Below, one piece after another: positions 16,010-31,541 of a stretch of 64,000 nucleotides of DNA (its first letter is position 1; each line of letters begins with the position of its first letter). The notes beneath the pieces were generated by a model. It worked only from the letters and a program-made list of their open reading frames with translations, was not told the DNA's origin and did not search any database. A program made the translations under genes and the position numbers. Source of the stretch: Deltaproteobacteria bacterium HGW-Deltaproteobacteria-8 (GTDB lineage Bacteria > Desulfobacterota > Desulfovibrionia > Desulfovibrionales > Desulfovibrionaceae); the NCBI GenBank assembly GCA_002840405.1, contig PHAR01000001.1:640320-704319 (forward strand), written 5' to 3'.

Positions 16010-18109
16010 CTATTCGGGCTGGGCCTCAATGCGGCGCACCTTGACGAAGTGCTCCTGCATGCAGATGCCGCCACCGGCCTTGTCCCAGTTGTCCATGCCG
16101 CCGGGCATGAGGTCGTTGTCCGACACGCCACGGCCCTTGGCGCGGCTCTCCACCGGAAGGGTGTGGCCGAAGCCGTGGACCATGAACACCGCCTCGGGGT
16201 GGATGAACTCGGTGACGTAGGCGCGCAACTGGCCGCCCTCGCCCCTGGACGAGGAGACCTCCACCATGTCCATGTGCTCGATGCCAAGATCCTTGGCCCT
16301 GGCCTTGTTCAGCCAGAGCACGTTCTCGGGCATGAGCGCGAACAAAAGCGGGTTGTTCACGGTGTGGCCCTGGGTGTGCAGTCCGCAGCGGCCGAAGGTG
16401 ATACGGAACTGGTCCTTGGGCGCCTTGGCGGGCGAGACATAGGGCGGCAGGGACGGCAACTGGACCTTGTCGAGCTTGTCGGCCAGGAGTTCGATCTTGC
16501 CCGAGGCAGTCTTGAAGGACACAGGCTTGTAGGTGGGCTTTGGGGCCAACTCCACGAAGCCCTTGGCCGCGAAGTCCTCGACGCTGACGCCGGTGCCCTC
16601 CAGCTGCTTGGCCCAGAGCTCCTCCGGCCTGTCCACCGCGAGGGGCTCCATGCCCAGGCGCTTGGCCAGACCGGCGATGATCTCCCAGTCGGCCTTGGTG
16701 TCGAAACGCGGCTGCATGGCGCGTTGGCGCAGGAAGAACTGGGGCTTGAGTCCGCCCTTGCTGGCGATGATGCTCTCACGCTCCAGGTAGGTGCTCATGG
16801 GCAGCACCACGTCAGCGTTCCAGGCCGTGTCAGACCAGGTGAAGGTGATGGCCACGAAGAGCTCCAGCTTCTCCCAGAGCTTCTTCACGGCCGCCGGGTC
16901 GGGGAAGGCCATGAGCGGATCGTGGCGATGGGCGATGTAGGCCAGGATGGGGTACGGTTTGCCCGAGGCGATGGCCTCGTAGGCAAGGTTCACCAGGCCC
17001 GGACCAGCGTCAAAGTGGGTGCGGCCCTCGGCCCAGCCCGCGCCGTCCACGCGCTTCTTCTCCGGCTTGGGGAACAGCTCCGTGAGCTGCTTCAGGCCCT
17101 TGCGGCCCACGTCGCCGGCCTTGCAGGACAGCGGCAGGCCGCCCTTGGCCCCGATGGCGCCCATGAGGGAATTGATAATGTATGCCGTGCGGCAGACGTG
17201 GAACGAATCGCCATAGCGCGCAACCATCCAGCCCGGATGCCAGACAACGGAGGGCGCGGCCTTGGCGAACTGGCGCACAAATTCGCGGATGGACTCAGCC
17301 GTGGCCCCGGTCTCCTTTTCGGCGAACTCCGGGGTGTAGGGCTCGATGAACTCCTTCAGAATGTCAAAATCCTTGACCCATTCCTTGACGAACTTGCGGT
17401 TGTACAGCTTCTCCTTGACGATGACGTTGATCACCGCAAGGTTGAAGGCGTAGTCCGTGCCCGGGCGGATGAGGAAGAAATTATCGGCCTTGGCCCCGGG
17501 CACGTTGGCCCGGATGTCGATGACCGTGAGCTTGCACCCGGCGTCGCGCGCGTCGAGCAGGTCATTGACCTCCTTGACGTTGATGCCTTCCAGGATGTTC
17601 CTGGTCTGCAGCACCACGTGCCTGGCATTTTTCAGGTCGTAGACCAGTTCCTTGCGCCCGCAGCCGAAGATGGACAGGGAGGCGTGCTGCACGTTGCGCG
17701 CGCAGGAGGTGTCGTGGTTGCAGTAGTTGGGCGAGCCGAAGCCGCGCACAAAGGCCTTGCTCAGGTCCATGTACGGGCCGCCTCGGTCTGACCAGAGCAG
17801 GGCCTCGGGACCGTGCTTGGCCTTGATGTCCTTCAACTTGTCAGCCACGTAGTCCAGGGCTTCGTCCCAGGAGGCGACGCGCCATTTCCCCTCGCCCCGC
17901 TTGCCCGTGCGGATGAGCGGAGTCTGCGGGCGCTCGTCGTCGTAGAGCAGGGCCGGCCCGGCCGCTCCGCGCGCGCACAGTGCGCCCTTGAGCCCGGCCG
18001 CGTGCGGATTCCCGAAAACGCTGGCCACGCTTCCATCTTCAACGTCGACAGCGATGGGGCAACGAACACTACACATCCCACACACGCTGAAGACCTGTTT
18101 CCTCTCCAT
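16010..18109 (-). CDS. Molybdopterin oxidoreductase, PhsA/PsrA-like
   Basis: A 699-residue enzyme of the DMSO-reductase superfamily. An N-terminal CGMCSVRC plus a later GALCARG gives one [4Fe-4S] cluster; the molybdopterin-guanine-dinucleotide domains follow, with TRNILEGINVKEVNDL and GRCGLHTQGHTVNN near the end. The stretch NHDTSC near 157 offers a Cys that could ligate Mo or W, as in PhsA/PsrA-type enzymes. There is no Tat signal, so it should be cytosolic, unlike classic PhsA/PsrA. AGGAGG precedes the chosen ATG. The likely electron partner is the ferredoxin gene diverging from the same control region. The substrate cannot be told from sequence. Confidence 0.85.
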   Translation of the reverse strand: MERKQVFSVCGMCSVRCPIAVDVEDGSVASVFGNPHAAGLKGALCARGAAGPALLYDDERPQTPLIRTGKRGEGKWRVASWDEALDYVADKLKDIKAKHGPEALLWSDRGGPYMDLSKAFVRGFGSPNYCNHDTSCARNVQHASLSIFGCGRKELVYDLKNARHVVLQTRNILEGINVKEVNDLLDARDAGCKLTVIDIRANVPGAKADNFFLIRPGTDYAFNLAVINVIVKEKLYNRKFVKEWVKDFDILKEFIEPYTPEFAEKETGATAESIREFVRQFAKAAPSVVWHPGWMVARYGDSFHVCRTAYIINSLMGAIGAKGGLPLSCKAGDVGRKGLKQLTELFPKPEKKRVDGAGWAEGRTHFDAGPGLVNLAYEAIASGKPYPILAYIAHRHDPLMAFPDPAAVKKLWEKLELFVAITFTWSDTAWNADVVLPMSTYLERESIIASKGGLKPQFFLRQRAMQPRFDTKADWEIIAGLAKRLGMEPLAVDRPEELWAKQLEGTGVSVEDFAAKGFVELAPKPTYKPVSFKTASGKIELLADKLDKVQLPSLPPYVSPAKAPKDQFRITFGRCGLHTQGHTVNNPLLFALMPENVLWLNKARAKDLGIEHMDMVEVSSSRGEGGQLRAYVTEFIHPEAVFMVHGFGHTLPVESRAKGRGVSDNDLMPGGMDNWDKAGGGICMQEHFVKVRRIEAQPE

Positions 18110-18133
18110 GACGACCTCCTCGGAGTACACTTC

Positions 18134-18366
18134 GTACCCCCTGCGAACGTTATACCCCCCCCATACTACAGGTCGTTTAAAATGGCTAGTGGCTGGGCAC
18201 AAACACAGTTATGCCGGGAGATAAGAGCCGTAAAACGCTATCCCCCTGTTAAGGTAGGCAAAACCGCAGCATGGGAAAAAAAGAACGAGCAGTCTCCAGG
18301 TATTGACAGCGGGCCTTGCTTTATGGTCTACATTTCAAAGATTAGGGTACCGTTCAGGGGTATACT
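18134..18366. promoter_or_regulatory. Divergent control region with matching GGGGTATA boxes
   Basis: On the minus strand a GGGGTATAAC box (18150-18159) lies about 40 bases before the oxidoreductase ATG. On the plus strand an AGGGGTATACT box (18356-18366) lies 45 bases before the ferredoxin ATG. Each contains a good -10 (TATAAC, TATACT) but no -35 at normal spacing. The sequence CGTTC, a short gap, AGGGG, TA occurs on both strands. A separate TTGACA at 18303 with TCTACA 18 bases later is another plus-strand promoter candidate. This suggests one activator serving both genes. Confidence 0.45.
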
Positions 18367-18410
18367 GCGGCCGGGCAATCCCGTGCCAGTTGTAAAGTCA
18401 GGAGAAGAGC

Positions 18411-18866
18411 ATGAGCCTCTACCGCATCGCGCTGAACCCCAACCGCTGCATCGGCTGCAAGTCCTGCCTGGTGCACTGCAACGTCAAGAACAAACTGCCA
18501 GCAGGAATCTCTTTGAACCGCATTAAGGCTCTGGGGCCCTTCAGCGGCCCGGACGGTAGCCCACGAATGGAGTTCGTGTATCAGAACTGCCTGCAGTGCG
18601 ACGAGCCGTTCTGCGTCAAGGTGTGTCCTTCCGGCGCACTGGTCAAGCGCCCTGAAGACGGCTTGATCACCTTGGACATGGAGACCTGCATCGGCTGCCA
18701 CCGCTGCGAGAAGGCCTGCCCCTGGGACGTCCCCGTATTTCTTGAAAGCGTGGGCAAGACCACGAAATGCGACTTCTGCCTGGACCGTCTGGAACGGGGC
18801 CTGGATCCGGCATGCGTCACCGGCTGCACGTCAAAGGCCCTGACCTTCGTGCGCCTGGCCAAATAG
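18411..18866 (+). CDS. Four-cluster ferredoxin, DmsB/PhsB-like electron-transfer subunit
   Basis: A 151-residue cytosolic protein with 16 Cys in four groups: CIGCKSCLVHC, CLQCDEPFCVKVC, CIGCHRCEKAC and CDFC with a late CVTGC. This is the standard four [4Fe-4S] electron-transfer subunit of DMSO-reductase-family enzymes, passing electrons to or from the molybdopterin subunit. It diverges from the oxidoreductase and is followed after 69 bases by a TSUP permease. No membrane anchor (NrfD/PhsC type) is present, so the pair probably uses a soluble electron donor. Confidence 0.9.
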   Translation: MSLYRIALNPNRCIGCKSCLVHCNVKNKLPAGISLNRIKALGPFSGPDGSPRMEFVYQNCLQCDEPFCVKVCPSGALVKRPEDGLITLDMETCIGCHRCEKACPWDVPVFLESVGKTTKCDFCLDRLERGLDPACVTGCTSKALTFVRLAK

Positions 18867-18935
18867 CACCGCCCCAGCACCACACACGCTGGAAGCACAA
18901 TACCTAACCCCCAAACAACAGGAGGAACACGGCTC

Positions 18936-20225
18936 ATGAAAAAACGTTCCCTCATCGCCTGCGCCATCGCGGCCCTTTCCCTCTGCCTTTGGCTCGGCGT
19001 TGCCGTGGCCCAGCAGGCCCCTGCGACCCCGGCTTCCGATGCTGCCAAGGCCGCGAGTGCCGTGGCTGGAGATGCCGCCAAGACCGTTGATGCCGCCGCC
19101 GCTGACGCCTCCAAGGCAGTGGAAGGCGCTGCCAAGGCCATGGACAGTGCGCCCAAGAGCATGCTGGCAGCAGCCATTGCCAAGGCCCCGCGCGGCTCGG
19201 AAAAGGGCATGATCGATGAATCCAAGCCCGTTGGATTCCTTGGCATTCCCGGAGCGCCCCAGGTCAACCCGATCCTGGCCTTTGTCTGGGCCGTGTGGGT
19301 CGGCTGGATTTTCTCCACTGTCGGCGCCTTCGGCGGCGTCATGTCGGGAGTGGGACACATAACCATCTTCGGCCTTGGAGCTTATGCGGGCAGCCTCAAA
19401 AAGACCGCCCCAGAGCTGGGCCGCGTCATCACCGACTCCATTAAGGCCTCCAACCAGTTCCTGGTGGGTACCTCGGCCGCCATCAGCTCCTTCAACTATC
19501 TGAAGATGGGCCGCCTGGTCCTTCCGCTGGCCATCAGCCTGGGGCTGGGCTCACTGCTCGGCGCCTATGGCGCCGCCACCCTGTCCGCTGGCAAGCTCGA
19601 CTTCAAGTCCTACCAGGGCTACTTCGGCCTCTTCGTCCTGGTCCTGGGCTGCTGGCTCCTGTACGAAACCACCCCGGCCGGCCAGGCCAAAAAGCAGACC
19701 GCAAAGGCGGCCGCCAAGGCTTTTGAGGACGCCGTCAAGAAGCTCAAGGGTGGCGAAGTCGTTGAGGAAAGCAAGCTTGGCCTACACATCCAGAAGTTCA
19801 ACCTTTCCACCTGCGAGTTCATCTTCTACGGCGTGCCCTTCAAGTTCAACCCGCTGATCCCGTTCCTTGGCGGCATCGTCATCTCCGCCGTGGCGGCCTT
19901 CCTGGGCGTGGGCGGCGGCTTCCTGCTGGTGCCCTTCCTTACCAGTGTGACCCAGCTGCCCATGTACCTGGCCGCTGGCACCTCGGCCCTGGCCGTGCTC
20001 ATCAGCATGGTCACCAGCATCATCACCCTCATGACCAAGGGCACCCCCATCGAGTGGACCCTCATCGGCATCGAGCTGGTGGGCATCACCGTGGGCTCCA
20101 TCGTCGGTCCCATGACCTCCAAGTACCTCTCCGACAAGCTGATGAAGCGCCTCTTCATCGTGCTCTCGTTCTACATCGGCCTGCGCTATCTGCTCAGAGG
20201 CTTCTTCAGCATCAATCTCATTTAA
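18936..20225 (+). CDS. TSUP (TauE/SafE) permease with Ala-rich N-terminal extension
   Basis: TSUP proteins carry sulfite, organosulfonates or related sulfur anions. This 429-residue member starts with a hydrophobic signal-like segment ending VAQQA (about residue 26). An Ala/Lys/Asp-rich region to about residue 85 follows, then eight or so membrane helices in two halves with a charged loop of about 45 residues in the middle. The family glycine motifs are GGVMSGVG and GVGGGFLLVPF. The extra Ala-rich region resembles a periplasmic spacer. GGAGG precedes the ATG. It follows the ferredoxin gene, suggesting that the oxidoreductase acts on an imported or exported sulfur compound. Confidence 0.88.
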   Translation: MKKRSLIACAIAALSLCLWLGVAVAQQAPATPASDAAKAASAVAGDAAKTVDAAAADASKAVEGAAKAMDSAPKSMLAAAIAKAPRGSEKGMIDESKPVGFLGIPGAPQVNPILAFVWAVWVGWIFSTVGAFGGVMSGVGHITIFGLGAYAGSLKKTAPELGRVITDSIKASNQFLVGTSAAISSFNYLKMGRLVLPLAISLGLGSLLGAYGAATLSAGKLDFKSYQGYFGLFVLVLGCWLLYETTPAGQAKKQTAKAAAKAFEDAVKKLKGGEVVEESKLGLHIQKFNLSTCEFIFYGVPFKFNPLIPFLGGIVISAVAAFLGVGGGFLLVPFLTSVTQLPMYLAAGTSALAVLISMVTSIITLMTKGTPIEWTLIGIELVGITVGSIVGPMTSKYLSDKLMKRLFIVLSFYIGLRYLLRGFFSINLI

Positions 20226-22039: not shown

Positions 22040-23086
22040 TCAGAGCTTCATCTTGTACTGAGCCAGCTTGTGCCGCAGGGTGCGCGGGCTGATGCCGAGC
22101 AGCTCCGCCGAGCGTTGCTTGCTGCCGCCTGCGGCCTTGTAGGCGCGCTGGATGGCCCTGGTCTCGGCCTCGCGCACCACGGAGTCCAGGTTCAGGGCCT
22201 CCACGCTGTCGTCGCCCTGGGGGCACATGGTGTCCATGCCGATGCCCAGGCGCATCTCCAGGGGCAAGTCCTCGGGCTTCACCAGGCCCTCGCCCTTGTG
22301 CAGCAGCACGGCGCGCTCCACGAGGTTCTTCAGCTCGCGCACGTTGCCCGGCCAGGAGTGGCGCAACAGCAGGGTCATGGTCTCCGGCGCCAGGGACAGG
22401 TTCGGGCGGTGGTACTGGCCGCCAAAGAGCCACAGGAAATACTCGGCCAGGGGCGCGATGTCCTCGGGCCGCTCGCGCAGGGACGGCAGGGAGATGGGGA
22501 TGACGTTCAGGCGGTAGAAGAGGTCGGCTCGAAAGCGCCCGCCGCGCACCATCTCCGGCAGCAGGCGGTTGGTGGCGGCCACGATGCGCGCGCGGAAGCC
22601 CTGGTCCTTCTCACCGCCCAGGCGCTTGAAGGTGCGCTCCTCCAGCACGCGCAGGAAATCCACCTGGTTGGACAGGGGGATGTCGCCCACCTCGTCCAGA
22701 AACAGGGTGCCGTCCCCGGCCAGCTCAAAACTGCCCTTCTGCAACCGGAGCGCGCCGGTGAAGGCCCCGGACTCGTGGCCGAAAAACTTGTCGGCAAAGA
22801 GCTCGCCCGTGAGCACGCCGCAGTTCACCGGCACAAAGGGCCGCCCGCTGCGGTTGCTGAGGGTGTGCAACAGCCGGGCAAAGAGCTCCTTGCCCGTGCC
22901 GGATTCGCCCGTGAGCAGCACCGGGGCGTCGGACCCGGCCACCTGGATGGCCACGTGGTACAGGGCGCGCATGGCCTCGGAGCGGAAAAGCAGCCCGGCC
23001 TCGTGCATGGCCGAGCGCGCCTCCGGATCAGTGGCCACGCCTTGCGGCAAAAACGTGCCGCCGTTCATTCTGGGGTCAACACCCAT
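22040..23086 (-). CDS. Sigma-54-dependent activator
   Basis: A 348-residue enhancer-binding protein. After a short N-terminus of about 35 residues with no recognisable sensor domain comes a complete AAA+ domain: Walker A GESGTGKE, the sigma-54-contacting GAFTGA loop, Walker B TLFLDEVGD and the arginine-finger region RADLFYRL. A Fis-type helix-turn-helix ends the protein (AELLGISPRTLRHKLAQY). With no receiver or PAS domain it may be controlled by another protein or be constitutively active. It diverges from the second TSUP permease, whose upstream palindromes are its likely binding sites. Confidence 0.92.
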   Translation of the reverse strand: MGVDPRMNGGTFLPQGVATDPEARSAMHEAGLLFRSEAMRALYHVAIQVAGSDAPVLLTGESGTGKELFARLLHTLSNRSGRPFVPVNCGVLTGELFADKFFGHESGAFTGALRLQKGSFELAGDGTLFLDEVGDIPLSNQVDFLRVLEERTFKRLGGEKDQGFRARIVAATNRLLPEMVRGGRFRADLFYRLNVIPISLPSLRERPEDIAPLAEYFLWLFGGQYHRPNLSLAPETMTLLLRHSWPGNVRELKNLVERAVLLHKGEGLVKPEDLPLEMRLGIGMDTMCPQGDDSVEALNLDSVVREAETRAIQRAYKAAGGSKQRSAELLGISPRTLRHKLAQYKMKL

Positions 23087-23180
23087 CCATTCCCCCTGGT
23101 CAACTGGTGGCGAATTCGCCTCACCCTGCGCCCGCGCACCGGCTTTTCCCCTTGTCCGCAGCCGCGCACCCAGCAATAAA

Positions 23181-23196: not shown

Positions 23197-23236
23197 GTCA
23201 AGACCCTTTGGGACAAATCATGCCGCCATGGGAAGA

Positions 23237-23260
23237 TTCTTGCCGCTTTTGCGGCAAGAA
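23237..23260. promoter_or_regulatory. Perfect palindrome, candidate enhancer site 2
   Basis: Two ten-base arms, TTCTTGCCGC and its exact complement, around TTTT. A third half-site CTTGCCGC follows at 23261-23268. It shares TTGCC/GGCAA half-sites with the 23181 palindrome. It is centred about 72 bases upstream of the -24 element. Confidence 0.65.
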
Positions 23261-23319
23261 CTTGCCGCACAGGCTGCGGAGTGAACCGTATAAATCAAAT
23301 AATGACAGCATATTACCGT

Positions 23320-23336
23320 TAGGCACGGATATTGAT
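23320..23336 (+). promoter_or_regulatory. Candidate sigma-54 promoter for the second TSUP operon
   Basis: AGGCACG, four bases, TTGAT: the invariant GG and the spacing are right, with one mismatch in each element. It lies 84 bases before the permease ATG and downstream of the two palindromes. Confidence 0.55.
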
Positions 23337-23419
23337 AAGAGAGGGGTATCCCTGCGCCGGGCCGGTTCCGGGGCGTACAAGGGCGCAGTGCAAATCCAAC
23401 GATGATCAAGGGAGCGGGA

Positions 23420-24427
23420 ATGACGATGAATCGGAAACATGTTCTGGCGGGCTCCGCCTGTATTGTCCTGATGGGTGTGCTGCTCTTCGCGGCCTTCGCC
23501 TGGGCCTCCAACGCGGGTACGGAAGCCGTAGCCCAGGTCGGCGCCGACATAGTCAGTGCCGGCGCACATCTTGGCGCAAACACCGGCGTGGCCTGGTGGG
23601 TCTGGCCGCTGGTGCTGCTGTTCTTCTGTTTTGTGCTCGGCATCATCGCGGTGCTGGCTGGCGTTGGCGGCGGCGTCCTCTACGTGCCCCTGGTCAGCGG
23701 GTTCTTCCCCTTCCACCTGGACTTCGTGCGCGGCGCGGGCCTCATGGTGGCCCTGGCCGGAGCGCTGGCGGCCGGTCCCGGTCTCTTGAAACGAAATTTT
23801 GCGTCCCTGCGCCTGGCCCTGCCCGTGGCGCTCATCGCCTCCAGCTGCGCCATTCTGGGCGCGTTCCTGGGCATGGCCCTGCCGACCCAGGTTGTGCAGC
23901 TCTTTTTGGGCATCACCATCATGGGCATCGCCATCCTGATCCTGTGCTCCAAGAATTCCGCCCGCCCGGTGGTGACCAAGCAGGACGCCCTGGGCATGGC
24001 GCTCGGCATGAACGGCGCCTACAACGACCCCGCCACCGGCGAGCTGGTTGAATGGAAGACCCACCGCACCCTGCCGGGCCTGCTGATGTTCATCATCATC
24101 GGCATCATGGCCGGCATGTTCGGCCTGGGCGCGGGCTGGGCCAACGTCCCGGTGCTGAACCTGATGATGGGCGCACCGCTCAAGGTGGCCGTGGGCACCA
24201 GCAAGTTCCTCCTGTCCATCACCGACACCTCCGCCGCCTGGGTCTACCTGAACAAGGGCTGCGTCATCCCGCTCATGGCCATTCCGAGCATCATCGGGCT
24301 CATGCTGGGCTCCTTTGTCGGCGTGCGGCTGCTGGCCAAGGCCAAGCCCACCTTCATCCGCTACATGGTCATCGGCGTGCTGCTCTTCGCGGGCGGCAAG
24401 GCCCTCTTGAAGGGCCTGGGCGTCTAG
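23420..24427 (+). CDS. TSUP (TauE/SafE) permease 2
   Basis: A 335-residue polytopic permease with a first hydrophobic helix at about 10-30, a short Gly/Ala periplasmic loop, and the family halves marked by LAGVGGGVLYVPL and GMFGLGAGWANVPVLN. A cytosolic loop of about 35 residues separates the halves. TSUP members move sulfite, sulfoacetate, taurine products and similar anions. It is distinct from the permease at 18936, which has a long N-terminal spacer. AAGGGAG precedes the ATG. It heads the same-strand run of signalling genes up to 31.5 kb and is the probable target of the facing sigma-54 activator. Confidence 0.9.
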   Translation: MTMNRKHVLAGSACIVLMGVLLFAAFAWASNAGTEAVAQVGADIVSAGAHLGANTGVAWWVWPLVLLFFCFVLGIIAVLAGVGGGVLYVPLVSGFFPFHLDFVRGAGLMVALAGALAAGPGLLKRNFASLRLALPVALIASSCAILGAFLGMALPTQVVQLFLGITIMGIAILILCSKNSARPVVTKQDALGMALGMNGAYNDPATGELVEWKTHRTLPGLLMFIIIGIMAGMFGLGAGWANVPVLNLMMGAPLKVAVGTSKFLLSITDTSAAWVYLNKGCVIPLMAIPSIIGLMLGSFVGVRLLAKAKPTFIRYMVIGVLLFAGGKALLKGLGV

Positions 24428-24483: not shown

Positions 24484-24912
24484 ATGAGCGATCAAATCAA
24501 AGTCACCGGAAAGGCCTCCGCCGAGCAGGTCACCTACGCCAACATGCTGTTTTATGGTTCCTGGACCGGCCTGGGCCTTATGGCCCTGACCTACCTTTTG
24601 TACGTCTTCGGCATCATCACCCCGCACATCCCGCTGGACCAGGTGCCCCTGATGTGGTCCCAACCCGTGGGAACGTACCTCGAGCTGGGCAAGGTCCCCA
24701 CAGGCTGGGGCTGGTCCGTCCTCATTCTCAAGGGCGATTTCCTCAATTTCCTGGGCATCGTGCTCCTGGCGGCCATGACCATTGTCTGCTATATTCCTCT
24801 CATTCCGGCGTTTATCAAGCGCAAGGAAATGCTCTTCGCCGGGCTGGCCCTGGCTGAGATCCTGGTTCTCATGTTCGCCGCTTCCGGCATCGTGGGCGGA
24901 GGCGGGCACTAG
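24484..24912 (+). CDS. Small membrane protein, TSUP partner
   Basis: A 142-residue protein with three to four hydrophobic helices (about 25-45, 83-108, 118-136) and a tail GGGGH. AAGGAG precedes the ATG, which is 57 bases after the permease stop. It resembles in size and topology the DUF1634-type proteins found beside TSUP permeases, but I cannot confirm that family. The glycine-histidine tail might bind metal; that is speculation. Probably an accessory subunit of the permease. Confidence 0.7.
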   Translation: MSDQIKVTGKASAEQVTYANMLFYGSWTGLGLMALTYLLYVFGIITPHIPLDQVPLMWSQPVGTYLELGKVPTGWGWSVLILKGDFLNFLGIVLLAAMTIVCYIPLIPAFIKRKEMLFAGLALAEILVLMFAASGIVGGGGH

Positions 24913-24972: not shown

Positions 24973-26241
24973 TTGGACCAGAACATACTTGAGAGCTTGA
25001 GCGGACTGGACAGGGCCGACCTGCCCCGCATCCTGAGCGCGCTGCCCTTCGGGGTGGCCGTGCTGGATGCAGAGAGGCGCACCCTGTTCCTGAACCGCGC
25101 CTTGGAAAGCCTCACAGGCTTCTCCACCGCAGACGTGGCGGGCGTTTTCTGCCGCCACGTGCTGCGGGGCAGCTTCTGCCTGCACGGCTGCCCGTGCCTG
25201 TCGCAAGGCAGGGACTGCGCTCCCGGCGCTTGCAGCGAAAGCCGCGAGGGCACGCTCATCAACCGCCACCGCCGCAAGATTCCCGTGCGCCTGACCAGCC
25301 TGCCCATCCTGGACCGCGCGGGCAATTTCCTGTGCACCCTCGACGTGCTGGAGGACCTCTCGGCCCTGAAGGACATGGAGACGCGGCTGTCCATCTCCGC
25401 CAGTCCGGGGCAGATGGTGGGCCGCTGCGCGGTCATGGAGCATCTGCTGCGCATCCTGCCCGCCGTGGCCCAGAGCGACTCCCCGGTGCTGCTCACAGGC
25501 GAGTCCGGCACGGGCAAGGACCTGCTGGCCGAGGCCCTGCACCGCTTCAGCCCAAGGGCGCGGGAAAGCTTCGTGCGCGTCAACGCCACGCCCATGCCCG
25601 AGGCCCTGCTCGACGCCGAGCTCTTCGGCCAGTCCGAGGGACCGGGCGGCGTGCCCCGGCCGGGCAAGTTCCAGCTGGCCCAGAACGGCACGCTCTATCT
25701 TTCGGAAATCGCCGACATGCCGCTGGCCCAGCAGGGCCGCCTGCTGCGGCTGCTGGACGAGAAGGCCGTGCTGCCAGCCGGCGGCGACCGGCCCATGCAC
25801 CTGAACGTGCGCGTGGTTGCGGCCACGGGCCGCGATCCCGAGGAGATGGTCAAGGCCGGGGTCCTGCGCGACGACCTGTTCCACCGCCTGAACGCCGTGC
25901 GCCTGCACCTGCCGCCCCTGCGCGAACGCGGCGAGGATGTCGGCTTCCTGCTGGCGCACTACCTGAAGATCTTCGCGGCCAAGTTCCGCAAGCAGGTCCT
26001 CGGCTTCTCCGACGAGGCCCTGTCCCTGCTCACCTCCTACGACTACCCCGGCAACGTGCGCGAGCTGCGCAACATGGTCGAGTACGCGGTGATGGTCTGC
26101 GCCGGGGAGACGGTTCAGCCCGAGCATCTGCCCGCGCATCTGCGCTTCCCCCTGGCCGCCGGGTCCTCGGTCGCCACACAGGCTTCCCAGGCCCAGGGCA
26201 AACCCTCCGGCGCGCTCAAGCCCGCCCGGAAAAAGGCGTAG
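24973..26241 (+). CDS. Cys-rich PAS protein with degenerate sigma-54-activator AAA domain
   Basis: A 422-residue protein with a TTG start after GGAGGA. Residues 20-135 form a PAS domain with six Cys at 60, 69, 73, 75, 82 and 87, likely a metal, [Fe-S] or thiol redox sensor. The AAA domain keeps Walker A (GESGTGKD, 176-183) and the sensor-2 region GNVRELRN. In place of GAFTGA it has GPGGVP at 223-228; Walker B reads LYLSE instead of LFLDE; and the C-terminus is a basic tail with no Fis helix-turn-helix. It is therefore unlikely to open sigma-54 promoters or bind DNA by itself. It may act as a sensor or regulator of another AAA protein. Confidence 0.85.
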   Translation: MDQNILESLSGLDRADLPRILSALPFGVAVLDAERRTLFLNRALESLTGFSTADVAGVFCRHVLRGSFCLHGCPCLSQGRDCAPGACSESREGTLINRHRRKIPVRLTSLPILDRAGNFLCTLDVLEDLSALKDMETRLSISASPGQMVGRCAVMEHLLRILPAVAQSDSPVLLTGESGTGKDLLAEALHRFSPRARESFVRVNATPMPEALLDAELFGQSEGPGGVPRPGKFQLAQNGTLYLSEIADMPLAQQGRLLRLLDEKAVLPAGGDRPMHLNVRVVAATGRDPEEMVKAGVLRDDLFHRLNAVRLHLPPLRERGEDVGFLLAHYLKIFAAKFRKQVLGFSDEALSLLTSYDYPGNVRELRNMVEYAVMVCAGETVQPEHLPAHLRFPLAAGSSVATQASQAQGKPSGALKPARKKA

Positions 26242-26250
26242 GGGGCAGTC

Positions 26251-26601
26251 ATGGGCAAGAAGATTCTGGTCACGCTGTATCGCGACGAGGTGGCCCCGCG
26301 CTTCGACCTGTGCTCCGAGGTGCTGCTGGTCACGGTGGACGCCACCGGGCATGAGGTGCGCAGGCAGGATCTGGTGCTGGCCAATTCCAGCGCCGACGAC
26401 CTCTGCGACCTGATCCTGGACCGCGAGGTGGCCGCCGTCATCACCGGCGGCATCGAAGAGGAGCACTACCACTACCTGCGCTGGAAGCGGGTGGAGGTCA
26501 TCGACGGCGTGGCCGGCCTGTCCGGCGAGGCCCTGGCCCTGTATCTGCGTGGAGAGCTTGAACCCGGCGCCATCCTCTTTCAGAGGCTAAGCCATGAGTA
26601 A
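26251..26601 (+). CDS. NifX/NafY-like (dinitrogenase FeMo-cofactor family) protein
   Basis: A 116-residue protein matching the small alpha/beta domain of NifX, NafY and the C-terminus of NifB. Marks are ILVTLYRDEVAPRFDLC near the start, a central VITGGIEEEHY and an EVIDGVAG strand. Family members bind or carry FeMo-cofactor or related Fe-S clusters. No nif genes are nearby, so here it may bind a small cluster or anion as a ligand-sensing part. It starts nine bases after the PAS/AAA gene and overlaps the kinase gene by eight bases, so it belongs to the signalling operon. Confidence 0.8.
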   Translation: MGKKILVTLYRDEVAPRFDLCSEVLLVTVDATGHEVRRQDLVLANSSADDLCDLILDREVAAVITGGIEEEHYHYLRWKRVEVIDGVAGLSGEALALYLRGELEPGAILFQRLSHE

Positions 26602-28318
26602 ACTCACCGACATCCTCAAGCACCCGTTGAGCGGATTGCAGAACGACGTGGACGAGGCCGAGTCGCCGGTGCGCTACACCCTGCTGCGACAGAAGATCTT
26701 CGCCCTCATGGCTGCGGCCACCCTGATCCCGCTCTTGGCCATGGCCGTGCTGAACTACTACGAGCACCAGACCACCATGGCGCGCGAGATTCAGAACCCC
26801 CTGCGCGTGCTGGTGAACAAGACAAAGAACTCCTTTGAGCTGTTTTTGACCGAGCGCTCTTCCACCGTGAGCCTCATCGCCTCGGCCTACACTTATCCTG
26901 AGCTGGCCGATGAAAAGAAGCTCGTGCGCATCTTCAGCGTCATGAAGAAGGAGTTCAAGGGCTTCGTGGACCTGGGGCTCATCGACGAGCACGGCACCCA
27001 GGTGAACTACGTCGGCCCTTACTCCCTCAAGGGCAAGAACTACGCCGAGCAGCGCTGGTTCCAGGAAGTGCGGATCAAGGGCAAGTACGTCAGCGACGTA
27101 TTCATGGGCTTCCGCAAGTTCCCCCACGTCATCATCGCCGTGCAGCACATGACCGAGGACGGACGCACCTGGATCCTGCGCGCCACGCTGGACACCCACC
27201 AGTTCGAGCGCATCATCGCGAGCATGAGCCTGGAGCCGGACGCTGACGCCTTCCTGGTCAACGGCCAGGGCATCATGCAGACCAGTTCCAACAACTACGG
27301 CAAGGTGCTGGAGAAGATGTCCTTCAGCCTGCCGCCCCAGACCTACGAGCCGGCAGTGCTGACCATGCTCGATCCCCTGGGACGTGATGTCTACCTGTCC
27401 TACGCCTACTTCCCGGACGCCGACTTCGTGCTCATGGCCGTGAAGCCGCGCGGCTCGCTGCTCAAGAGCTGGTACACCGTGCGCGGCGACCTGCTGTTCG
27501 TCTTCGCCCTGGGCGTGCTGGCCGTGTTCGTGGCCGCCTACCGCGTCACCGACGTGCTCATCGGGCGCATGAAGGAGTCCGAAGAGCGTCGCGAGATGGC
27601 GCTCAGGCAGGTGGAGCACTCCCAGAAGCTCTCCAGCATCGGGCGCCTGGCTGCGGGCGTGGCCCACGAGGTCAACAACCCCCTGGCCATCATCAACGAG
27701 AAGGCCGGGCTCATGAAGGACATCATGGACCGGGAGGCCGACTTCCCGGCCAAGGCCAAGATCGAAGCCCAGGTGGACAGCATCCTGCGCGCCGTGGAGC
27801 GCTGCCGGGGCATCACCCACCGCATGCTCGGCTTTGCCCGGCGCATGGACGTGAGCATCGAGGACTTGGACGTCGGCGAGATCATCAAGGAGACCTCCGG
27901 TTTCCTCTCCAACGAGGCCATGCACCGCAAGGTCGACGTGCGCCTGGAGATCGACCCCGAGCTGCCGCGCATCAACTCGGACCGCAGCCAGCTCCAGCAG
28001 GTCTTCCTGAACCTCTTCAACAACGCCCTGGCCGCCGTGGCCGACGGCGGACGCATCGTGGCCATGGCCCGCGAGGTCGGGGACTTCGTGGAGATCACCG
28101 TGCGCGACAACGGCTGCGGCATGTCCGACGAGACCCTGAAGCACATCTTCGAGCCCTTCTTCACCACCAAGAAAGGCAAGGGCACGGGCTTAGGTCTGTC
28201 CATCACCTACGGCATCATCAAGCGCCTTGGCGGCGACATCGCCGTCGAGAGCGAGCAAGGCGTGGGCACCACGCTTACCATCACCCTGCCCAAGGGGCAG
28301 CGGGAGGCACTGGCATGA
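26594..28318 (+). CDS. Cache-domain sensor histidine kinase
   Basis: A 574-residue membrane kinase. One transmembrane helix lies at about 34-55 and a second at about 300-320, enclosing a periplasmic double-Cache domain of about 240 residues, the usual site for sensing a small ligand. The cytosolic part has an H-box GVAHEVNNPL (His near 356) and an ATPase domain with NNALAA, DNGCGM and GKGTGLGL boxes. It overlaps both neighbours: the NifX-like gene by eight bases and the response regulator by four. It should be the main input of the relay controlling this locus. Confidence 0.93.
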   Translation: MSKLTDILKHPLSGLQNDVDEAESPVRYTLLRQKIFALMAAATLIPLLAMAVLNYYEHQTTMAREIQNPLRVLVNKTKNSFELFLTERSSTVSLIASAYTYPELADEKKLVRIFSVMKKEFKGFVDLGLIDEHGTQVNYVGPYSLKGKNYAEQRWFQEVRIKGKYVSDVFMGFRKFPHVIIAVQHMTEDGRTWILRATLDTHQFERIIASMSLEPDADAFLVNGQGIMQTSSNNYGKVLEKMSFSLPPQTYEPAVLTMLDPLGRDVYLSYAYFPDADFVLMAVKPRGSLLKSWYTVRGDLLFVFALGVLAVFVAAYRVTDVLIGRMKESEERREMALRQVEHSQKLSSIGRLAAGVAHEVNNPLAIINEKAGLMKDIMDREADFPAKAKIEAQVDSILRAVERCRGITHRMLGFARRMDVSIEDLDVGEIIKETSGFLSNEAMHRKVDVRLEIDPELPRINSDRSQLQQVFLNLFNNALAAVADGGRIVAMAREVGDFVEITVRDNGCGMSDETLKHIFEPFFTTKKGKGTGLGLSITYGIIKRLGGDIAVESEQGVGTTLTITLPKGQREALA

Positions 28319-28728
28319 ACGCTAAAGACTGGAAGATCCTGCTCGTGGACGACGAGCGCGAGTTCATCACCACCCTGGCCGAACGCCTGGAGCTGCGCGG
28401 CATCCCCGCACGCGTGTGCTTTGATGGCGAGAGCGCGCTGGAGGCCATCGCCGCCGAGGAGCCGCACGTGGTCGTGCTCGACGTGCTCATGCCGGGCATC
28501 AAGGGCCTTGAAGTTCTGGAGCGCGTCAAGCGCACCAACCCGGGGGTGCAGGTGCTGCTCCTGACCGGCCACGGCAGCACGCGCGACGGCATCGAGGGCA
28601 TGCGCCTGGGCGCCTACGACTACATGATGAAGCCGCTGAACATCGACACGCTCATCGAGAAGATGGAGTCGGCCATCGACTATGCGCGCAAGGCCTCCGC
28701 CCTGCCGGGCAAAAGCGACGGGCAGTAG
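28315..28728 (+). CDS. Single-domain response regulator 1
   Basis: A 137-residue receiver domain with nothing attached. The acidic pocket VDDE is near residue 12, the phospho-acceptor Asp is in VLDVLMPG near 57, the conserved Thr is in LLTGHG, and the Lys is in MMKPLN. A short Pro/Gly tail follows. Its start overlaps the kinase stop, so they are translationally coupled and the kinase is its likely donor. With no output domain it probably passes the phosphate on or acts by protein contact. Confidence 0.93.
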   Translation: MNAKDWKILLVDDEREFITTLAERLELRGIPARVCFDGESALEAIAAEEPHVVVLDVLMPGIKGLEVLERVKRTNPGVQVLLLTGHGSTRDGIEGMRLGAYDYMMKPLNIDTLIEKMESAIDYARKASALPGKSDGQ

Positions 28729-28741
28729 GAGGGAAGGCACC

Positions 28742-29368
28742 ATGCGCGACGCACTCTTCATGGGCCGAATGACGGCTTCGGCCACCCACGAGTTGCAGAA
28801 CATCCTGGCCACCATCCGCGAGTCCTCCGGGCTCATGGAGGACCTGCTGGGCATGAGCAGCGAGGGTTTCGCCCATGCCGAGCGCTTCAAGAAAGGCTTG
28901 AGCGTGCTGGCCGAGCAGGTGGAGCGCGGCATGATCCTGACCGAGCAGCTCAACTTCTGCGCCCATGCGCCTGAAGCAAGCCCGGCCGGTGCCGACGTCA
29001 ACGAGGCCGTGCGCGCCCTGGCCGGGCTCGCGCGCAGGAGCGCCGCGCGCCGCAAGACCACTCTTGTGCTGGCTCCCGGACGCACGGGCCTGCGCACCTC
29101 CCTGCGCGCAGTTGAAGTCATGAACGCTGTGGACGCGGCCCTGGAAGCGGCGCTGGACGTGCTGCCCATGGGCACGCAGCTGATGCTCTGCGTGGAGGAG
29201 CATGGCGGGCTTGGCGTGGTGCGCCTGGACTCCCCGGGCTTTGATGCGCTGCGGCAGACCCCGGGCTGGAGCGAGCTCGCCACCCTGGCCAAGACCCTGG
29301 GCATCGGCGTGAGCGCCGGTCCTGCGGGCCAGGGAGTGGTGCTGGCCCTGCCTCGGCCTGCGGCCTGA
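28742..29368 (+). CDS. Histidine-kinase-like protein with H-box but degraded ATPase domain
   Basis: A 208-residue soluble protein. The first 80 residues form a typical dimerisation/phospho-acceptor helix pair with the H-box SATHELQN (His16). The rest has the length of a GHKL ATPase domain, but the N-box Asn is replaced (VDAALEAAL) and the glycine-rich lid motifs are gone, ending in GQGVVLALP. It should not bind ATP. By analogy with ChpT-type phosphotransferases, it could take a phosphate from one receiver and hand it to another. It starts 13 bases after response regulator 1, with GGAGG nearby. Confidence 0.75.
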   Translation: MRDALFMGRMTASATHELQNILATIRESSGLMEDLLGMSSEGFAHAERFKKGLSVLAEQVERGMILTEQLNFCAHAPEASPAGADVNEAVRALAGLARRSAARRKTTLVLAPGRTGLRTSLRAVEVMNAVDAALEAALDVLPMGTQLMLCVEEHGGLGVVRLDSPGFDALRQTPGWSELATLAKTLGIGVSAGPAGQGVVLALPRPAA

Positions 29369-29485
29369 GGCCCGCCACGGTCTCTTGATTTTTGGGAAAA
29401 GAAGAGTAGCATTCAGAGTAGCAGCTTGATTCACCATGTTTCGCAGGCGGAGTGCACGCCCCCTGCGGACAGCAAGGAGGACGCT

Positions 29486-29773
29486 ATGCTCGGGATGCTC
29501 AAAACGCTTGAGGACACCTTCGCGGCTTTGGCTTTTGCCGACGCCGGGGAGCGGCAGGAGGCCATGCAGATGGCTGGAGTGGAGGAAACGACGGTGTCCG
29601 TTTCGGACGTATATGCCGCCGTGGCCTTTGCCGAGGTCGGCTGCGAGGCCGAGGCACGCGAGATGCTGGGGATTCGCCCGGTCCGGCTCGTGCCCACGCC
29701 CAAGGTCTGCGGATTCCTGGAATCCGTCGGGCTCACGGGAGTGCGCGTGGCCTACGGACTAGCCGAAGCCTAG
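29486..29773 (+). CDS. Small protein of two helical repeats (AFAxxG motif)
   Basis: A 95-residue soluble protein with AAGGAGG five bases before its ATG. It contains two copies of a 22-residue unit: one with AALAFADAG...EAMQM near residues 12-32, one with AAVAFAEVG...AREML near 40-60. The unit looks like a TPR-like helix hairpin. A third copy lies at the C-terminal end of the neighbouring response regulator (29873). A closing 30 residues is Val/Gly-rich. No known family. It is probably a partner of that response regulator. Confidence 0.7.
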   Translation: MLGMLKTLEDTFAALAFADAGERQEAMQMAGVEETTVSVSDVYAAVAFAEVGCEAEAREMLGIRPVRLVPTPKVCGFLESVGLTGVRVAYGLAEA

Positions 29774-29788
29774 CCGGAAAGGCAAACA

Positions 29789-29856
29789 CCGGGGGGCCGG
29801 GACCGTCAGCCCTGACGCCTAAGTCCCGGTCCCCGGAACCGCGCAAGACTGCGCGG
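29789..29856 (+). promoter_or_regulatory. Two hairpins ahead of response regulator 2
   Basis: A long G/C stem with one bulge (29789-29803 with 29823-29836) is followed by a CCGCGC/GCGCGG hairpin (29839-29856). This ends just before the AAGGAG of the next gene. There is no T-tract, so mRNA processing or stability control is more likely than termination. Confidence 0.45.
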
Positions 29857-29872
29857 AAACAAGGAGTGCACC

Positions 29873-30331
29873 GTGAGCAAGAAGATCAAGCTGCTGCTGG
29901 TCGACGACGAGGAAAATTTCATCAACACCCTGGCCGAGCGCATGAAGATGCGCGACATGGGTCCCAATGTGGCCCATGACGGTGAGACCGCGCTTGAGAT
30001 GGTCAAGGACGAGGTTCCTGACGTCATGGTCCTCGACCTGCGCATGCCCGGCATCGACGGCGTGGAAGTGCTGCGCAAGGTCAAGAAGGCGCATCCGAAC
30101 GTTCAGGTCATCATCCTGACCGGCCACGGCAGCGAGCAGGACCAGGAGCTGTGCATGCAGCTCGGCGCGTTCGAGTACCACAAGAAGCCCGTGGACATCG
30201 ACCGGCTGGTCAAGAGCATCAAGGGCGCCTACCGTCAGAAGATGGAAGACATGATGGTGGCCGCAACCTTTGCCCAGGCCGGAGACTTCGACGACGCCGA
30301 CCAGGTCATGCACGAGCAAGACAAAAAGTAG
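29873..30331 (+). CDS. Response regulator 2 with C-terminal AFAxxG tail
   Basis: A 152-residue protein starting at GTG after AAGGAG. Residues 1-120 form a receiver domain with VDDEE, the phospho-acceptor in VLDLRMPG, LTGHGS and KKPVD. Instead of a DNA-binding output it ends in a short helical unit with MVAATFAQAG...ADQVM that matches the repeat in the small protein encoded just upstream. The tail is probably the contact surface for the output. Follows the two hairpins and precedes the hybrid regulator/kinase by 13 bases. Confidence 0.92.
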   Translation: MSKKIKLLLVDDEENFINTLAERMKMRDMGPNVAHDGETALEMVKDEVPDVMVLDLRMPGIDGVEVLRKVKKAHPNVQVIILTGHGSEQDQELCMQLGAFEYHKKPVDIDRLVKSIKGAYRQKMEDMMVAATFAQAGDFDDADQVMHEQDKK

Positions 30332-30344
30332 CCCGGGGGCAGCC

Positions 30345-31541
30345 ATGAACGCTGTCCTGCTCGTCGACGACGAGCGTGACTTCGCCGATCTTCTGGCCGA
30401 GCGGCTCCAGGCGCGGGGTTTTGAGGTCCGAACCGCCTACGACGGTGAGGAAGCCCTGCGCCTGGCCGCCGGATACGATGTCGACGTGGCCGTGCTCGAC
30501 GTGAACCTGCCGGGCATGGACGGGTTGGCCCTGCTGCGCGAACTGAAGCTCGTGCGGCCCCAGGCCGAGGCCCTCATGCTCACCGGCCAGAACGATCTGG
30601 CCACCGCCGTGGCCGGCATGAAGCTCGGCGCCACGGACTACCTGGTCAAACCCGTGCCCATCGACCGGCTTGTGGAAGCCATCACCCGCGCCCAGGACCG
30701 TCGCCAGGAACGCCAGGAAGGCCTGCGCATGGCCGAGACGGCCAAGATGGCAGCCCTGGGGCAGATGGCCGAGGGCGTGGCCCACGAGATCAACAACCCC
30801 GTCAATGTCATGGTCTCCCTGGCCGGGTGGATGGACGACCTGGTGGCCGACCTGGCGGCAGCTCTCAAGACGCCTCCAGAAAGGGTCTCCGGCACCCTGA
30901 CGGAACTCTCCCAGAGCGCGACCAAGCTGCACGAGCACGGCCTGCGCGTGAAGCAGCTGACGGCCAAGCTGCTCTGCCTGTGCCACAGGACCAGCCCCGG
31001 CTCCCGGCTCGACCCCAACACCCAGAAGTCCCAAGGCCTCACCCCGGAGCCCCACATGGCCGACCTGGGCGCCCTGCTCAAGGGCCTGCTGGCCGAGCGC
31101 GCGCCCCGCATGGCCGAAACCCACACCAAAGCTCTTCAGGAACTCGCTCTGGACCTGCCCGCCCTGAACGTGCCCCAAGCCTCCCTGCCCGGCGCCAACC
31201 TGGGCACCGCCCTGGGCAACATCCTGGACAACGCCCTGGACGCCATGCCGGTTGACGGCACGCTCAGCGTCTCCACCCAGTCCGAGGCGGGCGAGGTCGT
31301 CATCGTCATCGAGGACACCGGGCACGGCATCAGCCCGGCCCACCTGCCGCGCATCTTCGAGCCCTTCTTCTCCACCAAGGACGTGGGCCAGGGCACAGGG
31401 CTCGGCCTGTCCGTCAGCTACGGCATCATCAAGGGCCTGGGCGGCGACATCCTGGTGGACAGCCACCAGGGGCAAGGCACCAGAGTCACGATACGGCTGC
31501 CCGTGGCCCAGTCTCTTGGCGACGCCCCGTACCTGCGCTGA
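30345..31541 (+). CDS. Receiver-histidine kinase fusion (soluble)
   Basis: A 398-residue cytosolic protein. An N-terminal receiver (residues 1-120; acceptor in VLDVNLPG near 51, LTGQND, VKPVP) is fused to a kinase core with the H-box GVAHEINNPV near 150 and an ATPase domain with DNALDAMP, DTGHGI and GQGTGLGL. A stretch of about 60 residues between the phospho-acceptor helices and the ATPase is longer than usual. With no membrane span it takes its input from its own receiver. It is the last gene of the 23.4-31.5 kb run and faces the convergent hybrid kinase. Confidence 0.92.
   Translation: MNAVLLVDDERDFADLLAERLQARGFEVRTAYDGEEALRLAAGYDVDVAVLDVNLPGMDGLALLRELKLVRPQAEALMLTGQNDLATAVAGMKLGATDYLVKPVPIDRLVEAITRAQDRRQERQEGLRMAETAKMAALGQMAEGVAHEINNPVNVMVSLAGWMDDLVADLAAALKTPPERVSGTLTELSQSATKLHEHGLRVKQLTAKLLCLCHRTSPGSRLDPNTQKSQGLTPEPHMADLGALLKGLLAERAPRMAETHTKALQELALDLPALNVPQASLPGANLGTALGNILDNALDAMPVDGTLSVSTQSEAGEVVIVIEDTGHGISPAHLPRIFEPFFSTKDVGQGTGLGLSVSYGIIKGLGGDILVDSHQGQGTRVTIRLPVAQSLGDAPYLR

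Follow-up and report, generated by a model that had tools for sequence, protein, structure and literature searches.

How is a sigma-54 activator without a sensor domain kept under control, and what might a neighbouring relative still do once it has lost the parts that contact sigma-54 and DNA? Both questions are raised by a 64,000-nucleotide stretch of the genome of Deltaproteobacteria bacterium HGW-Deltaproteobacteria-8 (the window). Our preferred answer, to which we assign a probability of about 0.55, is that the second protein (the PAS-AAA protein) would be the non-DNA-binding, sensory AAA+ half of a two-protein sigma-54 activator, acting on the first.

The PAS-AAA gene (positions 24973-26241, + strand) is an open reading frame of 422 codons with a TTG start and the sequence GGGAGGA just upstream. 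Pfam recognizes a PAS domain (residues 16-57 as PAS, 21-129 as PAS_4), a Sigma54_activat domain (residues 149-311, E = 4.4e-48) and an AAA_lid_14 domain (residues 317-391, 25921-26145, +); over the 422 residues it matched no HTH and no DNA-binding domain of the TyrR or HupR kind. The protein has the PF00158 sigma-54 interaction domain and the Walker A motif of enhancer-binding proteins and lacks two features of functional sigma-54 activators, the GAFTGA loop, replaced by FGQSEGPGGVPRPGKF, and the C-terminal HTH. The sequence-only reading had described this combination of a lost loop and a missing HTH with an intact Walker A and sensor-2 region, and our analysis agrees with it on all of these points. 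Walker A reads GESGTGKD (residues 176-183, 25498-25521, +), and the lid contains the sensor-2 region GNVRELRN within DYPGNVRELRN. The former L1/GAFTGA loop (residues 220-230, 25630-25662, +) reads QSEGPGGVPRP, and Walker B, GTLYLSEIADMP (residues 239-250, 25687-25722, +), carries Ser at the Asp position and retains the Glu. In place of an HTH there is a 31-residue tail (residues 392-422, 26146-26238, +). The PAS domain (approximately residues 16-132, 25018-25368, +) contains six cysteines, at residues 60, 69, 73, 75, 82 and 87, within a span of 28 residues. The roles given to the Walker B, Arg-finger and sensor-2 positions in our alignment are those generally ascribed to them. An AlphaFold2 model built with 16 aligned sequences gave block mean pLDDT values between 80 and 94 in the AAA part and values below 50 from residue 395 onwards, and Foldseek matched the AAA part to the AAA domains of NtrC1, FleQ and PspF with a TM score of about 0.9 by target.

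Such a protein stands alone in its own genome, in which a sigma-54 gene was also found. PF00158 has 32 matches there, 28 of which span nearly the whole profile, and a GAFTGA-like loop is present in 26 of these 28; one further protein, L235, has a partial AYTEA, and only the PAS-AAA protein has none. L235 (C1:253949-254443) is a second atypical activator relative, with the loop VRWAYTEA instead of GAFTGA and a long N-terminal part.

The candidate partner is encoded divergently from the gene run that contains the PAS-AAA gene (22040-23176, - strand, exact start uncertain). It had been called an intact activator without a sensor, and rightly so: GAFTGA, the Walker B sequence LFLDE and an HTH_8 domain are present, and Pfam matched no sensor domain. 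The run itself starts with a TauE/SafE (TSUP) family permease (23402-24427, +, start perhaps the ATG at 23420) and a neighbouring small membrane protein of 142 amino acids with weak DUF1634 similarity below the cut-off (24484-24912, +). The PAS-AAA gene is followed by genes for a NifX/FeMo-co-binding-like protein (PF02579; 26251-26601, +), which co-occurs with it, and for a dCache histidine kinase (26594-28318, +) and a single-domain response regulator (28315-28728, +), both assigned by Pfam. The remainder of the run (28682-31541, +) encodes a protein with a sub-threshold HisKA match, a 99-amino-acid protein of no family, a response regulator and a receiver-histidine kinase. The 99-residue protein (29474-29773) is conserved at most loci of the genus and, with default thresholds, matches no family in Pfam or NCBIfam, weak matches appearing only at E up to 1. 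The order of divergent activator, permease, membrane protein, PAS-AAA, NifX-like protein, dCache kinase, regulators and receiver-kinase is largely alike in long loci, and some small downstream genes were undetected in more distant ones. Elsewhere in the window (16010-20225), a divergent PhsA-like molybdopterin oxidoreductase has as neighbours a 4Fe-4S protein and another permease of the TauE family; these neighbours recur at L023 and L024, and this group is possibly a separate unit for sulfur-compound respiration.

The divergent intergenic region contains a conserved, activator-site-like triplet, TTGCCG-N5-GCGGCAA-N4-TTGCCG (23240-23267), which is common to 12 divergent regions of the genus. 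In the window it is followed 53 bases on by the -24/-12-like pattern GG(C/T)(A/C)C(G/A)-N4-TTG, and the sigma-54-like promoter proposed there, AGGCACGGATATTGAT (23321-23336, +), lies upstream of the operon and has an imperfect -12 element. The consensus TGGC-N6-TTGCW has no match in the 64-kb window, where 1.76 would be expected by chance, and the proposed site rests on its conservation in the 12 intergenic regions, all of the genus Humidesulfovibrio. The triplet element also holds a perfect 10-bp hairpin stem (23236-23285, z -5.0 as single-stranded DNA), consistent with a putative strong dyad binding site. A pattern scan gave matches in only part of the scanned loci, and exact TGCCGC half-sites were missing from L055 and L057, both of the GAFPGA type, and from L080.

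This arrangement, in which a run with a sigma-54-like promoter is divergent from a GAFTGA activator that has no sensor, is the one described for DVU2960 and DVU2956 of D. vulgaris, to which the PAS-AAA protein and the partner activator correspond by layout, not by sequence. DVU2956, which has no N-terminal domain, runs divergently from the operon DVU2957-DVU2967; this operon contains DVU2960, a GAFPGA protein termed of unclear functionality (PMC4641369). As in the window, a sensorless GAFTGA activator thus faces a sigma-54 operon that holds a second, loop-defective relative; the difference is that DVU2960, known by description, is reported with GAFPGA, whereas the window protein has neither loop nor HTH. 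Judging by the GAFPGA copies L055, L056, L057, L165 and L208, DVU2960 probably still has an HTH. A three-half-site element was described upstream of DVU2957 (Kazakov 2015, PMC4641369), and in the gel shifts with purified proteins given there this upstream region was bound by DVU2956 and not by DVU2960, for which the assay covered one promoter region only. These data fit the pair of an activator and a non-DNA-binding protein that had been claimed from the window. For the four sensorless activators, a partner protein or a cascade was suggested (PMC4641369), and our literature search found no named controller of DVU2956 beyond this suggestion; among the papers searched by locus tag, DVU2960 is mentioned only in the same one, and six neighbouring tags occur in three papers. 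DVU2958 is counted among the TSUP transporters (PMC5840216). DVU2956 is reported from Zhu 2019 to reduce and disperse biofilm and to move cells from biofilm to planktonic growth (PMC8586430), and the title of that study, as listed there, states that it regulates sulfide production.

To place the motif losses in their evolutionary context, loci were collected with the small membrane protein as marker, for which 80 of 117 relatives were kept and which was found in 120 of the order's 297 genomes. After duplicates had been merged on the basis of identity in a part of the membrane-protein gene, 129 distinct loci remained, the window included. A PAS-AAA orthologue was present in all 14 other genomes of the genus that were searched, with 73-90% identity and one partial copy. 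The motif tables hold 68 PAS-AAA rows (L095, L102, L184 and L185 excluded), of which three (L088, L090 and L110) are intact, with GAFTGA and HTH, and 65 are non-intact, L066, whose frame is broken early, being left out of the latter. GAFTGA occurs in 0 of these 65. Five Nitratidesulfovibrio-like copies (L055, L056, L057, L165 and L208) combine GAFPGA with an HTH and are the only ones to retain this domain, six have a PW-type loop without HTH, and 53 have neither a recognizable loop nor an HTH; L052, likewise Nitratidesulfovibrio-like, has GAFPGA, and its contig stops before the point at which an HTH could be judged. Two intact relatives, 47% identical and with GAFTGA and HTH, also exist within the order (L019 in G024, L020 in G032). 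The concern that homologues might keep both features and the window protein be a single-strain decay can therefore be dismissed, given orthologues in 14 of 14 genomes and a loss common to the homologues; since an HTH is kept in five of 65 copies and intact relatives exist, the loss is lineage-wide, not universal.

The nucleotide-binding site has fared differently from the loop. The Walker A Lys is found in 65 of 65 non-intact homologues, the Walker B Glu in 59 (with Asp in the other six) and the sensor-2 Arg in 64, the remaining sequence being cut off there. The first and second Arg-finger positions are kept in 53 and 58 of the 65 and lost in some genera, with Asp at the first (7/65) and His at the second (6/65). 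The change at the Walker B Asp position, which the sequence-only reading had counted among the losses, is real but is not supported as a mark of lost function, and we rejected it as a functional lesion: Thr stands there in the intact L088, L090, L110, L019 and L020, and Ser, Ala, Thr or Pro elsewhere, so that the Asp change preceded the loss of loop and HTH. The six PAS cysteines, too, are present here and not a conserved feature as a set; residues 60, 69 and 73, candidate ligands of a possible Fe-S or metal centre, recur in 61, 60 and 58 of the 65 homologues, the other three are not conserved, and PAS cysteines are lost in some genera.

By sequence, these relatives form a series that leads from one-piece PAS-AAA-HTH proteins through GAFPGA copies with an HTH to copies without HTH and loop. 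In a tree of 51 of the 61 alignment rows (the partner activator, L066, L052 and seven near-duplicates were left out), the four loop/HTH states require three changes, which is the minimum possible. Support is 100/99 for the grouping of the GAFPGA copies having an HTH with the intact rows and weak for the other two groups, lost (64/76) and PW (70/91), and the order from intact through GAFPGA to lost presumes a root on the intact side. AAA-HTH proteins with damaged or missing loops and a retained HTH also occur at or near the loci of the permease and membrane protein. L095, L184 and L185 have no PAS domain, and their loops read EAFTTV, no GAFTGA and EAFTGA, respectively; L078 has no loop, and L102 has a GSFTGA loop with an HTH. 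L184, L095, L185 and L078 are possibly separate, DNA-binding cases of GAFTGA loss, and because L184 and L095 are loop-damaged as well, loop loss there does not require the partner activator, which counts against our preferred reading.

The distribution of loop and HTH bears on two readings in which the PAS-AAA protein would itself still regulate promoters. It might activate sigma-54 transcription and reach DNA through a partner, for which the HTH and GAFPGA loop of the Nitratidesulfovibrio-like copies could be cited, as could the suggestion of Kazakov et al. that some operons without predicted sites might be part of an unidentified DVU2960 regulon (PMC4641369). We regard this as very improbable, because the loop is unrecognizable in 53 of 65 homologues and of PW type in six, and single GAFTGA changes mostly abolish activation, the Thr to Pro exchange having inactivated B. 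japonicum NifA (PMC3162934, PMC4641369). Hardly credible, and the least probable of the readings considered, is a conversion into a regulator that, like TyrR or HupR, binds DNA and works independently of sigma-54; these two are GAFTGA-defective relatives as well (PMC3162934), but the window protein has no HTH match, only five of 65 homologues have an HTH, and the operon promoter was not shifted by DVU2960 (PMC4641369).

Could the protein simply be a relic that is losing its function and persists only as a part of the operon? The stepwise loss of loop, HTH and some Arg fingers would agree with this, as would a mean PAS-AAA distance of 0.78, the largest among the six locus proteins compared, and the early stop in L066, whether real or an assembly error. 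The selection analysis argues otherwise. Among 15 genomes of the same genus (105 pairs, Nei-Gojobori), median dN/dS was 0.17 for the AAA domain, 0.26 for the lid and 0.40 for the PAS domain, compared with 0.85 for the tail (61 of 105 pairs usable) and, from the 83 usable pairs, 0.68 for residues 221-229 of the former loop, a rough value that rests on nine codons. The partner activator gave 0.12 for AAA and lid and 0.06 for its loop (13 genomes, 78 pairs, of which 68 could be used for the loop). Purifying selection thus holds the AAA domain of the PAS-AAA protein while loop and tail drift. Together with the invariant Walker A Lys and the presence of a PAS-AAA gene at every fully flanked activator locus, this makes a relic improbable.

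That the PAS-AAA protein belongs with the activator is suggested by their joint distribution. Of 79 distinct loci from genomes of the order, 18 with short flanks were left out; in the remaining 61 fully flanked permease loci, activator, PAS-AAA and NifX-like genes were all present in 44 and all absent from 15, and the other two (L184, L185) carry a different AAA-HTH gene without PAS. Over all 129 distinct loci, 36 of them short-flanked and left out, 49 of 93 had all three genes, 38 had none and six were exceptions: L095, L184 and L185, and L088, L090 and L110, whose PAS-AAA protein is intact and which have no divergent activator (a NifX-like gene being present in L088 and L090 only). No activator-bearing, fully flanked locus without a PAS-AAA gene was found, and beside degenerate PAS-AAA copies a divergent, sensorless and complete activator is always adjacent if the flank extends far enough for it to be seen. 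The loop of the partner reads GAFTGA in 57 of 63 rows and GAYTGA in five, and that of L053 is interrupted by N. At E of 1e-100 or less (next match 1.5e-87), an activator orthologue occurs in 61 of the order's 297 genomes, 60 of which, G272 being the exception, also belong to the 120 genomes that have the membrane protein. The other 60 membrane-protein genomes have no activator at that threshold, although in at least one, G296, it is present but interrupted (locus L053). The genomes of the intact L019 and L020 have neither the membrane protein nor an orthologue of the partner (best E 1.1e-78 and 4.3e-81, the level of paralogues, with orthologues at 1e-100 or less), and no permease pair was found within the 1.5-kb flanks of either gene.

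The proposal of a two-piece regulator is therefore borne out to the extent that a protein devoid of loop and HTH travels with a sensorless activator. At the level of sequence, the PAS-AAA protein has lost its sigma-54 and DNA contact elements, retained its nucleotide site and been co-inherited with an intact activator. Co-occurrence with a partner is a supporting, and not by itself a defining, mark of a hetero-oligomeric activator pair, and co-occurrence and gene order fit equally well a function of the PAS-AAA protein beside the activator. The NifX-like gene (26251-26601; 2868-3191 in L019) is tied to the PAS-AAA gene as tightly as the activator gene is, and it also lies beside the intact one-piece activators L088 and L090, where a kinase gene is found downstream as well, and immediately downstream of L019. 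The protein with which the PAS domain really exchanges its signal may be the NifX-like one.

These observations speak against the activator as partner and give some substance to an alternative in which the PAS-AAA protein, as a sensory AAA+ adaptor, acts on the NifX-like protein, present even where the partner activator is not, or on the kinase and response regulators directly downstream in its own run. PAS-AAA and kinase distances do covary: over 52 loci with all six proteins (L052, L053 and L066 left out), the partial r of the PAS-AAA protein was 0.30 with the kinase and 0.20 with the activator when the other four were controlled, and 0.34 with the NifX-like protein and 0.29 with the activator when kinase, permease and regulator were controlled. 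Distance covariation does not discriminate between partners, and we rejected it as a means of picking one. The kinase is separable, since six loci (L067, on a short contig; L114, on a contig titled Desulfobulbaceae; L179, L180, L183 and L187) have it directly after the permease pair and lack activator, PAS-AAA and NifX-like genes. The retained activator-type AAA+ fold would moreover point to an AAA+ partner, and we consider an adaptor with such other targets unlikely, though the strongest of the competing readings.

We therefore return to the activator as the favoured target. The PAS-AAA protein is expected to bind ATP and to oligomerize through its AAA+ surfaces with the partner, probably by co-assembly into a ring, either as a mixed ring or by capping of a ring. 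A signal perceived by the PAS domain, perhaps redox, a metal or a sulfur compound, would make the activity of the partner dependent on it, with the NifX-like protein perhaps being accessory to this signalling. The likeliest sign of the effect is negative, with the PAS-AAA protein as a feedback anti-activator, because it would contribute neither sigma-54 loops nor DNA contacts and because its gene lies in the operon that the partner reportedly binds; our second choice is a co-activator that is obligatory, as in the FleQ/FleT pair. The loss of Arg-finger positions in some genera weakens a single ring mechanism for the whole family, and this loss or that of the PAS cysteines suggests that the mechanism may differ among genera.

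With the odds somewhat against it, we further suggest that the series of relatives in sulfate-reducing bacteria shows a split enhancer-binding protein caught in stages, in which a PAS-AAA-HTH protein became a sensory ring subunit that gates a second, sensorless activator. If so, sensing would reside in one subunit type of a single AAA+ ring, and sigma-54 remodelling and DNA binding in the other. The PAS-AAA protein provides a named candidate controller for the sensorless activators of the DVU2956 type, and at those loci of the order that we examined the two are inherited together as a unit. The relatives also supply natural intermediates of a transition from one piece to two, and the working of a mixed AAA+ ring is testable in an existing model strain.

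TyrR, DhaR, HupR and VpsR act through DNA binding, and PspA is not an AAA+ protein. The former four share a defective GAFTGA with the PAS-AAA protein (PMC3162934), which differs from them by having no DNA-binding domain; TyrR, DhaR and HupR are, in addition, sigma-70 dependent (PMC3162934). PspF and PspA, named in PMC4641369, offer the likeness of a sensorless activator under control in trans. Interacting activators on record comprise HrpR/HrpS, FleQ/FleT, RedR1/RedR2 and the VnfA paralogues (PMC9542535, PMC4145663). HrpR/HrpS of Pseudomonas syringae and VnfA1/VnfA3 of Azotobacter are interacting, co-dependent paralogues, but they are described as activating together, and the accounts of them in PMC9542535 and PMC4145663, as far as they concern these pairs, mention no loss of GAFTGA or of the DNA-binding domain. 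Closest is FleQ/FleT of Rhodobacter (Cereibacter) sphaeroides, a hetero-oligomer of two activator-type AAA+ proteins, one of which has no DNA-binding domain (PMC3162934, PMC9542535, PMC7277832). FleT lacks both sensor and DNA-binding domains (PMC3162934), whereas the PAS-AAA protein has a sensor; the complement of FleT would be a subunit that carries a sensor and lacks both GAFTGA and a DNA-binding domain.
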